A DNA stretch of 64,000 bases from contig NC_051072.1 of assembly GCF_004664715.2 (NCBI RefSeq), positions 124,001 to 188,000 on the forward strand, read 5' to 3'. The position numbers were made by a program, and so were the translations under genes. Below, one piece after another: positions 23,082 to 63,124 of the stretch (position 1 is the stretch's first letter; the number at the start of each line of letters is the position of its first letter). The stretch is from Peromyscus leucopus. Taxonomy: Eukaryota; Chordata; Mammalia; Rodentia; Cricetidae. Under the pieces are notes generated by a model. The model searched no databases, was not told the DNA's origin, and saw only the letters and a list, made by a program, of their open reading frames with translations.

Positions 23082-23594
23082 TGTAGCAGGAATCTTAAAA
23101 GTTCTTATTAATAAAATCAAACCCGAGACAAGTTATTGGGGTCCATGCTGGTAGATCAGAGAGACAGAACAAGCCACAGCTATCTCACCTCGCCTGATCC
23201 TCAGCTGGTCTTGTCTCCTCAGACTGGAGGCCTCTGAGTCCTCATCCGGAATGGGTCTCAGCTGAATTACTGCTCAAAAGCCTGAATGCTTAACCAGCCA
23301 AAATCTTCTAGTTTCTGGTCCTCACGCCTTATATATCTTTCTGATTTCTACCACCACTTTCTGGGATTAAAGGCTGGCTTTCTGGGATTAAAGGTGTGTG
23401 TCACCAAGCTTGGCTATTTCCAATGTGGCCTTGAACTCACAGAGATCCAGAGGGATTTCTATCTCTGGAATGCTAGGATTAAAGGTGTGAGTGCCACGTT
23501 TTTCTAGCCTTTGTATCTAGTGGCTGTCTGTTCTCTGACCCCCAGATAAATTTATTAGAGTACACAATATTTTGGGGAACACAATACCACCACA
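23082..23594 (-). mobile_element. Solo LTR (B1-containing family)
   Basis: On the plus strand it reads TGTAGCAGGAATCTTAAAAG to ATACCACCACA. A perfect 6-bp duplication cagtgg flanks it (23076-23081 and 23595-23600). Two B1-derived CTGGGATTAAAGG phrases lie inside. Confidence 0.95.
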
Positions 23595-24113: not shown

Positions 24114-24623
24114 TGTAGCAGGAATCTTAAAAGTTCTTATTAATAAAATCAAACCTGAGGCGAGTTTTTGGGGTCCATGCTGGTAGATCAGAGAGACAGA
24201 ACAGCCACAGCTATCTCACCTCACCGGATCCTCAGCTGGTCTTGTCTCCTCAGACTGGAGGCCTCTGAGTCCTCATCCGGAATGGGTCTCAGCTGAATTA
24301 CTGCTCAAAAGCCTGAATGCTTAACCAGCCAAAACCTTCTAGTTTCTGGTCCTCACGCCTTATATATCTTTCTGATTTCTACCACCACTCCCTGGGATTA
24401 AAGGCTGGCTTTCTGGGATTAAAGGCGTGTCACCATGCTTGGCTATTTCCAATGTGGCCTTGAACTCACAGAGATCCAGAGGGATTTCTATCTCTGGAAT
24501 GCTAGGATTAAAGGTGTGAGTGCCACCATTTTCTAGCCTTTGTATTTAGTGGCTGTCTGTTCTCTGACCCCAGATAAATTTATATAGAGTACACAATATT
24601 TTGGGGAACACAATACCACCACA
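24114..24623 (-). mobile_element. Solo LTR (B1-containing family)
   Basis: A close relative of 23082-23594 in the same orientation. The flanks (gttttc left, catgaa right) do not match, so one end may have been altered by recombination or deletion after insertion. Confidence 0.9.
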
Positions 24624-25760: not shown

Positions 25761-26016
25761 TCTCCTATTGTGGATTGGATTCTGGCCCCTTGTAGAAGAA
25801 TTTTGGAGGAAGAAGCCCAGTCAGCAGGACATCTCTGGGGCATGAGCCTGGTGTTCACCTCCAGATCCACAACATAAAAAGTATGAGTGTGAGTCGAGCC
25901 TTTGACAGAAATATTAGCCCTGTAAAATTTCTGGCCCATATTTTGTAATTTGAATCTTACTACAGCGTTTAAAAATCATGTTGACTCTGTTTTACTTTAA
26001 ACTAAGGAAGCAATAC
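25761..26016. other. Upstream flank of the promoter, unassigned
   Basis: A 77-codon minus-strand open frame (25706-25939) overlaps the promoter region. I recognise no domain in it. It could be part of an upstream exon or chance. Confidence 0.35.
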
Positions 26017-26516
26017 TGTAGCAGGAATCTTAAAGAGTCTTATTAATAAAATCAAACCCGAGCCAGGTACTGGGGTCAACGCTGGACAATCAGAGAGACT
26101 GAACAGGCCACAGCTTCCTCACCTTGCCAGTTCCTCGGGTGATCCTCAGACTCGATGGCTCTGCATCCACATCCAAAATGAATCTCAGCTGAACTGTGAT
26201 GCTGGAAAGCCTGAAAGCTTAGCCAGCCAAATGCTTCTAGTTCCTGGTCCTCACGCCTTATATACCTTTCTACTTTCTACCACCACCTGGGATTAAAGGC
26301 TCACTTTTTGGGATTAAAGGCGTGTGTCACGTTGCCTGGCTGTTTCCAATGTGGCTTTCAACTCACAGATATCCAGAGGGATTTCTGCCTCAGGAATGCT
26401 AGGATTAAAGGCGTGTGCTACCATTGCCTATCCTCTATGTTTAATATGGCTGCCCTGTTCTCTGACCCCAGATAAGTTTATTAGCACAATATTTTGGGGA
26501 ACACAATACCACCACA
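26017..26516 (-). mobile_element. Solo LTR (B1-containing family), head-to-head with the next element
   Basis: On the plus strand it runs TGTAGCAGGAATCTTAAAG to ATACCACCACA. Its presumed duplication is caatac on the left and aaatgc on the right, a 4 of 6 match. The right copy was reused as the target site of the younger element at 26523. Confidence 0.88.
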
Positions 26517-26522
26517 AAATGC

Positions 26523-27050
26523 TGTGGTGATATTGTGTTCCCCAAAATATTGTGTACTCTAATAAATTTATCTGGGGTCAGAGAACAGACAGCCACTAAA
26601 TACAAAGGCTAGAAAATGGTGGCACTCACACCTTTAATCCTAGCATTCCAGAGATAGAAATCCCTCTGGATCTCTGTGAGTTCAAGGCCACATTGGAAAT
26701 AGCCAAGCATGGTGACATACACCTTTAATCCCAGGAAGCAAGGCTTTAATCCTAGGGAGTGATGGTAGAAAGCAGAAAGATATATAAGGCGTGAGGACCA
26801 GAGACTAGAAGCATTTGGCTGGTTAAACATTTGGCCTGGTTAAGCTTCAGGCTTTTGAGCAGTAATTCAGCTGAGACCCATTCCGGATGAGGACTCAGAG
26901 GCCTCCTGTCTGAGGAGACAAGACCAGCTGAGGATCAGGCAAGGTGAGATAGCTGTGGCTTGTTCTGTCTCTCTGATCTACCAGCATGGACCCCAATAAC
27001 TGACCTCGGGGTTGTTTTTATTAATAAGAACTTTTAAGATTCATGCTACA
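26523..27050 (+). mobile_element. 5' LTR of the non-autonomous LTR element
   Basis: The 528-bp LTR runs TGTGGTGATATTG to TTCATGCTACA. It equals its 3' partner in length and differs from it at about 18 positions by my count, with no length change. It holds two B1-derived segments. A tRNA-Lys-type primer-binding site TGGCGCCCAACG follows at 27053. Confidence 0.95.
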
Positions 27051-28343
27051 TCTGGCGCCCAACGTTTATGTTACGAATTCATGAAAAAGCTGTTTGCCTG
27101 TGGCCTTGTGAGCCCCAGCTCAGGCCCAAGCTACACTCAGGCGGTTGTGGTGGCGCACACCGGTAGGATTTGCTGAAGGAGACAGAGGCAGTAGGATCCC
27201 GAGTTTGAGCTGGCCTAGGAGGCTTGGGAGAAGCTTTGGCCTGGACTGAGCCACAAACAGTGGTGGGACCATGGAAGCAGTGGCTACTGCTCCACGTTGC
27301 CAGCTCCTTCTCATCGTGTTGGTGACTACGGTGATGCTGCTACCTGGGACGAAGGGTTTACTGCTGCTGATTCAGAGAAGAATTGCCAGGACCATCGTGT
27401 TACAAGAAAGCATCTGCAAAGGTCAGTTTGGAAAAGTTTGGCAAGACAAATGGTGGGGAAAAATTGCTGTGAAGATTTTCTGTTCTAGGGAAGAATGTTC
27501 ATGGTTCCGAGAGACAGACATTTATTTATCAGACTGTGATTGCTCCAAACCACAGAGGAGGCACAAAAAAAAAAAAAAAAGTCTGCATGGAACCATGACC
27601 ACACCTAACAGCAACTTTGAAATCTTCAAAAGGACTATGGTAAAGCCATTAAGCTGATTAACACCACGGAAAGATCTGCTTTGGACTACAAACTGCTTAG
27701 GACAATTTTGAGATGGCTAGCTGAGATGATCCAGCCTGACAGACTACTTGAACAAAGACTTGAAACAAGCCCTGAACTTTCCTTTTATGCAAAGACTGGA
27801 CAAATGATACAGGACTTGACAATTAACCCAAAAAATTTCTTTTCAAGATTCCCTAAAGATGTCTTCACCCCTAGAAAGCAAAAAGAAAAAGAGAATATAG
27901 ATATGAGATAGATCATGAATCTACTCTGAGGAAAAAGATAAAGAAATAATAGGATAAATAGGTAGATCACTGAATCTACACTGAAGAAAAAGGGGAAGAT
28001 ACAAAAACGACAAAAGGTAGACTAATGAATCTATTATGAAAAGAAAAGAGAAAGAATATGGATATGATAAGATAAAAAGGGAGATTATGGAATCTACTTT
28101 TAAAAAGGAACTACTTGTTTTAAATAAGATAAGTAATGAAAATTTTTTAGTCTGAGTTTACCAGATGTTACTGGACTGGACATTGTTAATATATATAATG
28201 GAGTTTTTTGTCTGGATCTGTCAAATGTTAATGGACTAGACATTGTTAATATAATCTTGACTGTATATTGCATATGCTTATTGAAGATAGTTTTTCTTGT
28301 ATTAGTTATAAGCTTTTTTAATTTTAGACAAAAAGAGAGGAAA
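27051..28343 (+). mobile_element. Internal region of the LTR element with captured host sequence
   Basis: The 1.29-kb interior has no gag, pro or pol. It begins with the primer-binding site (27053-27064), then carries TGF-beta type I receptor mRNA-derived sequence (about 27245-27550), and then unassigned DNA (27590-28320). Part of the latter (GCTGAGATGATCCAGC near 27720) recurs near 54681 in the other LTR element. It ends with the polypurine tract tagacaaaaagagaggaaa (28325-28343). The whole unit 26523-28871 is flanked by a perfect 6-bp duplication aaatgc (26517-26522 and 28872-28877). Confidence 0.9.
27245..27657 (+). pseudogene. Tgfbr1: Captured, truncated TGF-beta receptor type I (ALK5) mRNA fragment
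   Basis: TGFBR1 is the membrane serine/threonine kinase receptor for TGF-beta. The open frame (128 codons from 27271) starts like its signal peptide ([18 protein letters not shown]). It then jumps to the end of the GS region and the kinase N-lobe ([13 protein letters not shown], then VAVKIF-like IAVKIF with the ATP lysine, then [10 protein letters not shown]). The ligand-binding and membrane-spanning parts are absent without an intron remnant; the join (near 27355) fits skipping from exon 1 to the exon that starts at the GS-region end. DNA before the ATG also resembles the receptor 5' UTR. The glycine-rich loop has lost its first Gly (Cys instead). Host similarity stops near 27550, before an A-rich run. 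No working kinase can result. Confidence 0.85.
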
Positions 28344-28871
28344 TGTGGTGATATTGTGTTCCCCAAAATATTGTGTACTCTAATAAATTTATCTGGAGTC
28401 AGAGAACAGACAGCCACTAAATACAAAGGCTAGAAAATGGTGGCACTCACACCTTTAATCCTAGCATTCCAGAGATAGAAATCCCTCTGGATCTCTGTGA
28501 GTTCAAGGCCACATTGGAAATAGCCAAGCATGGTGACACACACCTTTAATCCCAGAAAGCCAGCCTTTAATCCCAGGGAGTGGTGGTAGAAAGCAGAAAG
28601 ATATATAAGACGTGAGGACCAGAGACTAGAAGCATTTGGCTGGTTAAGCATTTGGCCTGGTTAAGCTTCAGGCTTTTGAGCAGCAGTTCAGCTGAGACCC
28701 ATTCCGGATGAGGACTCATAGGCCTCCAGTCTGAGGAGACAAGACCAGCTGAGGATCCGGCGAGGTGAGATAGCTGTGGCTTGTTCTGTCTCTCTGATCT
28801 ACCAGCATGGACCCCAATAACTGACCTCGGGTTTGATTTTATTAATAAGAACTTTTAAGATTCATGCAACA
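28344..28871 (+). mobile_element. 3' LTR of the non-autonomous LTR element
   Basis: 528 bp, starting TGTGGTGATATTG right after the polypurine tract and ending TTCATGCAACA. About 18 of 528 positions differ from the 5' LTR (roughly 3.4 percent), a fairly recent insertion. Confidence 0.95.
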
Positions 28872-28877
28872 AAATGC

Positions 28878-29136
28878 ACTAATGTGGGAATGAGAAGTAC
28901 CTTTTAAAATGATTTTGAAACCAGCCGTCATCTGTCAATCCTTGCTTCTAGCTGCTCTGCGGTTTCCTTGACAAATGGACCAGAGTTGATGGTCTGGACT
29001 GGGAAATTTAAAGAGACCTTGCATCTAAGTAAAAAGGGAAAGTCAAAACAAAACAAAATGAAACAAACACATGTGAAAGTATTTGAGTACAAAGTCGCCT
29101 TTGTCTGAATATGCTGTCCTACGAATAAGTAAATAA

Positions 29137-45561: not shown

Positions 45562-46051
45562 TGAGGTGGTATTGTGTTCCCCAAAATATTGTGCACCGTA
45601 ATAAACTTATCTGGAGTCAGAGACAGATCAGCCACAATATTAAACATAGAGGATAGGCAGTGATAGCACATGCCTTTAATCCTAGCATTCCAGAGGCAGA
45701 AATCCATGTGTTCAAGGATACAGCCAAGCATGGTGACTCATGCCTTTAATCCCGGGGAGTGATGGTAGAAAGCAGAAAGGTATATAAGGCGTGAGGACCA
45801 GAAACTAGAAGCATTTGGCTGGTTAAGCATTTGGCTGGTTAAGCTTTCAGGCTTTGGAGCAGCACAGTTCAGCCGAGATTCATTCGGGATGAGGACTGAG
45901 AGGCTTCTAGTCTGAGGAAACAAGATCAGCTGAGAAGTTGGCCAGGTGAGGTTAGCTGTGGCTTGTTCTGTCTTTCTGATCTTCCAGTGTTCACCCCAAT
46001 ACCTGGCTGGTTTGATTTTATTAATAAGAACCTTCTAAGATTCCTGCTACA
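45562..46051 (+). mobile_element. Solo LTR (B1-containing family), copy-2 specific
   Basis: It runs TGAGGTGGTATTGTG to TTCCTGCTACA and is flanked by a perfect tgtttt duplication (45556-45561 and 46052-46057). Copy 1 near 9020 has the uninterrupted TTAAATGTTTTATTTAA site. Confidence 0.95.
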
Positions 46052-62613: not shown

Positions 62614-63124
62614 TGTGGTGGTATTGTGTTCCCCAAAATATTGTGCACCCTAATAAATTTATCTGGGTTCAGAGACAGAACAGCTACTAGATAGAGAGGC
62701 TAGAAAATGGTGGCACACACACCTTTAATCCTAGCATTCCAGAGGTAGATATCTACCTCTGGATCTCTGTGAGTTCAAGGCCACATTGGAAACAGCCAGG
62801 CATGGTGACACACACCTTTAATCCCAAGAAGTGAGCCTTTAATCCCAGGGAGTGATGGCAAAAACAGAAAGATATATAAGTCTTGAGGACCAAAAACTAT
62901 AAGCTTTTGGCTGGTTAAGCTTTCAGGCTTCTAGCAGCAGTTCAGCTGAGATTCATTCTGGATGAGGACTCAGAAGCTTCCAGTCTGAGGAAACAGGACC
63001 AGCTGAGGAACTGGCGAGGTGAGGTAGCTGTGGCTTGTTCTGCATCTCTGATCTTCCAGCATTCACCCCAATACCAGGCCCTGAATTTGTTTTATTAATA
63101 AGACTTTTTAAGATTCATGCTACA
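62614..63124 (+). mobile_element. Solo LTR (B1-containing family)
   Basis: It runs TGTGGTGGTATTGTG to TTCATGCTACA with a perfect attctc duplication (62608-62613 and 63125-63130). Not present in copy 1. Confidence 0.96.

Follow-up and report, generated by a model that had tools for sequence, protein, structure and literature searches.

The locus described here raises the question of how an intronless piece of the TGF-beta type I receptor gene (Tgfbr1) came to lie between the two long terminal repeats (LTRs) of a retroelement. In a 64,000-nt stretch of the Peromyscus leucopus genome (contig NC_051072.1; hereafter, the window), positions 26523-28871 are a complete non-autonomous LTR insertion that carries Tgfbr1 sequence, without introns and in the sense orientation, between its LTRs (Table 1).

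Table 1. Features of the insertion and its borders (positions in the window)
Feature	Position	Strand	Evidence
Target-site duplication AAATGC, left copy	26517-26522	.	Identical to 28872-28877
5' LTR, 528 bp, TATATA at 26781	26523-27050	+	510/528 identical to 3' LTR
Primer-binding site TGGCGCCCAACG	27053-27064	+	Read in sequence
Element leader	27051-27141	+	In 40/40 scored copies, mean pairwise difference 0.021; also in four long copies
4.5SH-like segment (nt 3 to ~81)	27142-27218	+	63/68 ungapped, 70/79 in longer alignment; presumed reference letters
Tgfbr1 5'UTR and exon 1 (start codon 27271, signal peptide)	27219-27355	+	Aligned to host exon 1
Tgfbr1 exon 4, first ~184 nt, with 4-bp duplication at ~27524-27527	27356-27540	+	Alignments to host gene and copies
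Candidate splice donor AAAG/GTCAG within exon 4 part, GT at 27422	27418-27427	+	Use inferred solely from gene models of Scotinomys
End part of Tgfbr1 exon 6	27541-27564	+	Alignment to host gene
A-run ((CA)n in older copies)	27565-27580	+	Sequence, copy comparison
ORF, 128 aa	27271-27657	+	Open reading frame
Element 3' region, ending in polypurine tract (~28330-28343)	27581-28343	+	Present in uncaptured relatives without receptor sequence
3' LTR, 528 bp	28344-28871	+	510/528 identical to 5' LTR
Target-site duplication AAATGC, right copy	28872-28877	.	Identical to 26517-26522

Organization of the insertion

The LTRs differ at 18 of 528 sites (10 transitions and 8 transversions, no gap; K2P 0.0349) and enclose an interior of 1,293 bp. 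TGGCGCCCAACG, which we take to be a primer-binding site of the tRNA-Lys type, starts two bases past the 5' LTR, and the purine tract abuts the 3' LTR. No Pfam retroviral domain was detected in the two interior ORFs that were scanned. A preliminary description of this locus had given the coordinates and numbers of the LTRs, the AAATGC duplication, the primer site and the polypurine tract, all of them correctly.

Other LTRs of the same family are present in the window. An older solo LTR in inverted orientation (26017-26516, 78% identity to the 5' LTR) abuts the AAATGC duplication, and because it ends exactly there, the element must have been inserted at its edge. The own flanks of this solo LTR, CAATAC and AAATGC, agree at 4 of 6 bases. 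Additional full-length, apparently solo LTRs were found at 23082-23594 (with CCACTG on both flanks), 24114-24623, 45562-46051 and 62614-63124, and the LTR start occurs nine times in the window when up to 3 mismatches are allowed. Part of the LTR (26617-26690, LTR positions ~95-168) recurs elsewhere in the window and also in Tgfbr1 introns, a behavior that resembles that of a SINE.

Origin of the Tgfbr1-derived sequence

When compared with solved TGF-beta receptor type I chains, the ORF gave a best E value of 1.3e-20 over residues 27-86. We located the host Tgfbr1 gene of P. leucopus on contig C2 with an ectodomain query and used the 110 kb around it to read the exon borders. Against this gene, the exon 4 part of the element aligned at 84% over 189 columns (2.4e-54), the 5'UTR/exon 1 part at 70% over 163 columns with 24 gap positions (3e-15), and 31 nt of exon 6 at 94% (1.2e-7). 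In the host gene, exon 1 ends with ..GACGGAGG/GTGAGC and the start of exon 4 reads ..TGTAG/GTTTACC. At the join, the element has GACGAAGG/GTTTACTG, which links the two exons precisely at their splice sites, in frame and with phase 1 on both sides. Exons 2 and 3 are missing from the captured piece, the introns are gone, and part of the 5'UTR is included. Thus, the alignment of the exons and their exact join bear out the preliminary view that a signal peptide had been joined directly to a part of the kinase in an intronless sense piece, and the match to Tgfbr1 of the same species, which had been proposed as a check, is a strong one.

The preliminary description had overlooked a second internal join, in which ~184 nt of exon 4 are followed by the end of exon 6, as well as what is apparently a second captured RNA upstream of the receptor sequence. 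In addition, the 4-bp duplication shifts the frame in the window copy, and therefore the last ~44 codons of the ORF are out of the receptor frame; none of the 27 other aligned copies has the same duplication.

A 4.5SH-like segment upstream of the receptor sequence

The receptor 5'UTR is immediately preceded by approximately 77 bp that resemble 4.5SH RNA, which is described as derived from B1/7SL (PMC10137851). The segment scored 111, whereas 300 shuffles of the RNA reached no more than 28 and B1 scored 29. For every 4.5SH alignment we used reference letters of the 94-nt RNA that we presume to be correct. In four older copies of the element (see below), the match begins at nt 1, 1, 2 and 5 of the RNA, that is, at its 5' end, and ends at nt 78-83, with 85-90% identity. 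A search of window positions 26000-29000 against Rfam returned no 4.5SH, and its only matches, all sub-threshold, were at the palindrome that the inverted solo LTR forms with the neighboring element LTR; these are the microRNA matches that this palindrome gives.

Nucleotides 1-52 of 4.5SH, with up to 2 mismatches, occur at 68 places in the P. leucopus genome (16 of them with one mismatch, and none for the reversed control), some of which lie ~200 bp from exon 1/exon 4 joins. Eleven places share an identical second version of the 52-mer, GCCGGTGG...GGCGGAGGCAG (e.g., C1:25255615, C12:41887342 and C24:1152204). 4.5SH genes typically form a tandem array, and no such array was visible among the 68 places. 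There was also no sign of constraint on this part of the element, as its variation among the 36 of 40 copies with a full match (0.054) exceeded that of the leader (0.021) and of the exon 4 part (0.028). Because these comparisons use a presumed reference, the case that the upstream segment represents a piece of 4.5SH RNA is strong but not closed.

Copies in the P. leucopus genome

We searched the P. leucopus genome (2.475 Gb) with a 541-bp query, which yielded 1,998 first-look candidates, and scored the best 40. All 40 scored copies (L001-L028 and L047-L058) were read; they are the closest in sequence to the window copy, so their ages are not a random sample. The exon 1/exon 4 join is present in 40/40, although a few have point changes there and L008 has lost 1 nt. 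A 30-mer crossing the join was found at 573 + 544 = 1,117 places in the genome (reversed control, 0), and this number is a lower bound, as the 30-mer fits the short form of the element and misses diverged copies. The capture itself stands, but it cannot be attributed to the window copy, being ancestral to a family marked at more than 1,100 places.

LTR pairs could be measured in 24 of the 40 copies, and K2P values ranged up to 0.057. Six of these pairs are identical, which points to recent activity of the family. The window copy, whose LTR difference of ~3.4% had been given correctly but read as a sign of a fairly recent insertion, ranks third in divergence among the 24. Perfect 6-bp target duplications flank 20 of these 24 copies; L020 and L055 have 5 of 6 matching bases, and L051 and L054 have no match. 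We best explain the window copy as one of the older members of an ERVK-like family in Neotominae rodents that is non-autonomous, large and recently active.

Comparison of the exon 4 part with the gene gave K2P values of 0.129-0.157 for 38 short copies, against a mean of 0.028 among copies; L047 and L055 were left out, as their ends could not be located. Young copies have a 33-nt stretch identical to Tgfbr1 exon 4 (29 of the 40 scored copies), and in one further copy the identical stretch is 44 nt.

Long and short forms of the element

One of the P. leucopus protein records (P0057), annotated as 'TGF-beta receptor type-1-like, partial', corresponds to a long copy of the element (L059, G000:C9:35049000-35052200) and not to the receptor gene. 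With this protein as a query, 1,793 candidates were found in the P. leucopus genome and 150 were scored. Among the matches listed, short copies span residues 1 to ~90, and older ones run on through exons 4, 5 and 6. Four long copies (L059-L062) contain, in the same order, the leader, the 4.5SH segment, the 5'UTR, exons 1/4-5-6, (CA)n and the 3' region. They do not have the second join, and their exon 6 match stops 6 nt short of the exon end. LTR matches were found on both sides of L060-L062 and on the 3' side only of L059.

In a phylogenetic tree, all 40 short copies are on one side of a branch with support of 100/99, the nearest long copy is L060 (94/86), and the inner forks are mostly weak. 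Because the long form retains the exon arrangement of the gene, and because of this tree, we conclude that the long form came first and that an exon 4-to-exon 6 deletion generated the short form that spread.

Occurrence in other rodents

The species distribution was examined by two protein searches. The window ORF detected 117 proteins, and the second search was assessed from 120 listed matches of 1,041. Scotinomys teguina gene models accounted for 113 of the 117, and the others included proteins of P. californicus, P. leucopus and Neotoma lepida. A regular expression for the exon 1/exon 4 join matched 103 of the 117 proteins, and for 12 of the 14 misses, which were inspected, the join was visible by eye. 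By the same approach, the short-form join IYQT-IAPN was found in 11 of the 117 proteins and a further shortened RETDH form in 27. The tails of Neotoma proteins (..GGTKTKTKTKSAVDHDHT and ..GGTHTHKNLQ) resemble the 3' junction of the element, and several Scotinomys tails include its 3' region (..DFEIFKRM..). Scotinomys, Neotoma and Peromyscus all belong to Neotominae. Since proteins of Scotinomys, Neotoma and P. californicus bear the same join, the capture probably predates these genera.

Uncaptured relatives of the element

An older relative of the 3' region that has not captured receptor sequence was found on C2, downstream of Tgfbr1 and on the opposite strand. Upstream of its 3' region are, in order, gag p24, RNase H (below the Pfam cut-off) and integrase zinc domains. 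These decayed ERV remnants (L045 ~8590 to L046 3245; C2, minus strand) lie ~25-30 kb past the last Tgfbr1 exon, and the gag/pol remnants are tied to the 3' region by order and strand only. Because gag and pol remnants occur in this relative upstream of the common 3' region, it appears that the host sequence took the place of gag/pol, the comparison with uncaptured relatives being that of the 3' side. No uncaptured element was found in which both the leader and the 3' region were comparable to the captured form.

We examined the 3' junction with a 551-bp query taken from an uncaptured relative and crossing the junction point. All 40 scored places, one of which is the query itself, cross this point without receptor sequence, and 14 of them begin at query base 66-93, upstream of the junction. 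Two of these relatives were read. One of them has ..TTAAAATGTCAGTTTTCTGCAGTGAACC at the position where the long copy L059 reads ..(AC)nAAGTTTTCTGCAGGGAACC, and the element sequence thus starts at approximately AGTTTTCTGCAG. The repeat preceding AGTTTTCTGCAG matches neither exon 6 (GGCACTAAAAG) nor the three uncaptured relatives that were compared. A splice fusion at this junction (exon 6 donor to ERV acceptor) had also been considered and was dropped, as the exon 6 match of the long copies falls 6 nt short of the exon border and is followed by (CA)n.

Probable mechanism of capture

In the preliminary description, an exon-skipped receptor mRNA was proposed to have been captured at the RNA level. 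The exact exon 1/exon 4 join, the absence of introns, the sense orientation and the location of the insert at the position of gag/pol in the relative all support this proposal. The probable route is template switching by reverse transcriptase onto packaged host RNAs. Packaging of host RNA and template switching are both described in reviews (PMC5408686, PMC4997597). We favor this route because of the exact join, the junctions common to the copies, the 5' end of the 4.5SH-like segment and the order of parts in the uncaptured relative.

We infer the following course of events, including their order outside P. leucopus. In an ancestor, during minus-strand copying in the particle, reverse transcriptase would have left the element RNA within the 3' region and copied a packaged Tgfbr1 transcript, from which exons 2-3 had been spliced out, through exons 6, 5, 4 and 1 to near its 5' end. 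The next switch would have been to a 4.5SH-like small RNA, copied to its 5' end, and the enzyme would then have returned to the element leader. Since the LTRs, primer-binding site, leader, 3' region and polypurine tract were retained, the proteins of another element could have mobilized the product in trans. The later exon 4-to-exon 6 deletion gave rise to the short form.

An L1-type tail would, however, also be consistent with the A-run or simple repeat found at the 3' junction. L1-made chimeras of small RNA with mRNA are known, and it is conceivable that L1 made a chimeric retrocopy (4.5SH-like RNA plus exon-skipped Tgfbr1, with an A-rich end) within an LTR element that had lost gag-pol, and that this composite subsequently multiplied in the manner of an LTR element. 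In the window, the receptor piece ends in a 16-nt A-run, and this run, like the (CA)n plus A in older copies, resembles a decayed tail. We nevertheless consider such an origin unlikely. A tail and a target duplication of its own had been named at the outset as marks of an independent processed pseudogene inside the element. While the 3' A-run is present in the window copy and other short copies, and (CA)n in the four older ones, no target-site repeat flanks the insert: the best common word at its edges in the window is 4 nt, which was reached in 995 of 1000 shuffles, and the older copies have just a 5-nt word, CTGCA, near both edges. Moreover, the four long copies have chiefly (CA)n rather than A at this junction, the transcript would need to end within exon 6, and an earlier loss of gag-pol at the same place would be required.

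A DNA-level accident (genomic deletion of exons 2-3 and the introns) or an assembly chimera, which might be suspected because DNA of a single assembly was read, is hardly credible given a join exactly at the splice borders, the absence of all introns of the captured span, the 1,117 places, the target duplications and the same join in proteins recorded for three other species.

Fate of the captured reading frame

Of the 40 scored copies, 35 keep the captured frame open as far as the A-run, and in L008, L012, L019, L052 and L055 the frame is broken. A loose test had given 36 of 40 (the frameshifted L008 being a false positive) and a second test, which misjudged L055 and L057, gave 35; the latter number was adopted. 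Among 28 copies, codon variants included 51 nonsynonymous, 14 synonymous and 2 stop changes, compared with ~45, 19 and 3.5 expected, and no purifying selection was seen (pN/pS 1.70). It looks like the frame is a passenger, whose product would consist of the signal peptide and part of the kinase N-lobe. A frame under selection, for example one encoding a secreted kinase-N-lobe decoy that aids the element or the host, might be suggested by the large number of open copies, but young copies are expected to be open anyway, the pN/pS value argues against it, the window copy is frameshifted and the catalytic loop is not retained. We regard a selected decoy as very improbable.

A different role might involve splicing. 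At the candidate donor, 38 of 40 P. leucopus short copies have GCAAAGGTCAG, and the host gene has GCAAAGGTCGG. In Scotinomys, 52 of the 113 models depart from the captured frame right after ..GK, and 50 of these 52 continue with G, A, D, E or V (background 0.29), as a phase-1 donor AAAG/GT demands. Eleven of the 52 return to element sequence, and 41 have no recognizable return. Gene finders put introns at GT regardless, and for this reason the models reveal the choice of donor and not the existence of transcripts. For Scotinomys, the annotation drew on RNA-seq together with three ab initio predictors (PMC10521431), and these fusion models may be either real chimeric transcripts or a habit of the predictors. 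It is possible, although rather doubtful, that the captured piece serves as a mobile first exon, with an LTR promoter, a host start codon, a signal peptide and the splice donor AAAG/GTCAG. If so, insertion in or upstream of genes could place a secretory signal on unrelated proteins.

Four Scotinomys teguina models (P0063, P0073, P0095 and P0102) combine the captured signal peptide start with Pfam domains of other genes, and P0063 and P0095 are among the models that leave the captured frame at the donor. We take the corresponding accessions to be SUI1, TH1, VWC/TSP1-type and RNase H.

Implications and relation to known systems

This family provides a junction-resolved mammalian case in which captured host RNA has grown into a large repeat family. 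Because there are two host RNAs in tandem, and because a single genome has both older and younger forms, capture, trimming and spread can be traced stepwise. The findings also call for caution in annotation, as long copies are recorded as 'TGF-beta receptor type-1-like' and short ones as hypothetical proteins. In addition, the 33-nt identity to Tgfbr1 exon 4 is long enough to ask whether small RNAs directed against the element touch the receptor mRNA.

The best-known captures of host RNA are those of a few oncogenic viruses. Capture of host mRNA by ERVs is already known; what is new is an exon-skipped message, trimmed and present at very high copy number in a mammal, and the small RNA is apparently also part of what is new. 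Our literature search, which was thin on subscription journals, found no published description of a Tgfbr1 capture.

The closest known cases are the crocodilian CrocERV29 and CrocERV31, which carry captured host mRNA for KIT-ligand and nectin3, respectively (PMC4299795). As in the Tgfbr1-bearing family, the host mRNA is in a multi-copy ERV common to several species, and nectin3 replaces a viral gene in CrocERV31. However, near-complete ORFs, purifying selection and few listed copies are reported for the crocodilian elements (PMC4299795), whereas the rodent family has an exon-skipped fragment with a second RNA in front, shows no sign of selection and occurs at more than 1,100 places in a mammal. 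Acute transforming retroviruses likewise acquired spliced host sequence through recombination by reverse transcriptase and lost viral genes (PMC4997597, PMC13297096), but these viruses are exogenous, rare and tumor-selected, whereas the family described here is inherited, and we suggest no oncogenic activity for its receptor fragment. LTR-mediated retroposition and maize Bs1 (PMC5408686) offer a further parallel, in which mRNA enters an LTR element by template switching and the LTRs are kept, so that the product can move again. In the same source, L1-linked retroposition is presented as dominant in mammals, and the Tgfbr1 family represents a high-copy mammalian case.

The non-autonomous ERVK subfamilies of the deer mouse are also similar, as they are abundant, lack gag-pol and have interiors replaced by non-homologous sequence; no host gene is named for them in the portions of PMC10089650 that concern us. 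The Tgfbr1-bearing family may be one of these subfamilies, and the capture may thus account for one deer mouse non-autonomous ERV family with an interior of unknown source. Finally, a retroviral recombinant that contains 7SL sequence (cited in PMC4997597) resembles our case in that a small RNA of the 7SL type was patched into a retroviral genome; it is a single recombinant, whereas the elements with 4.5SH-like and Tgfbr1 sequences form a multi-copy germline family.
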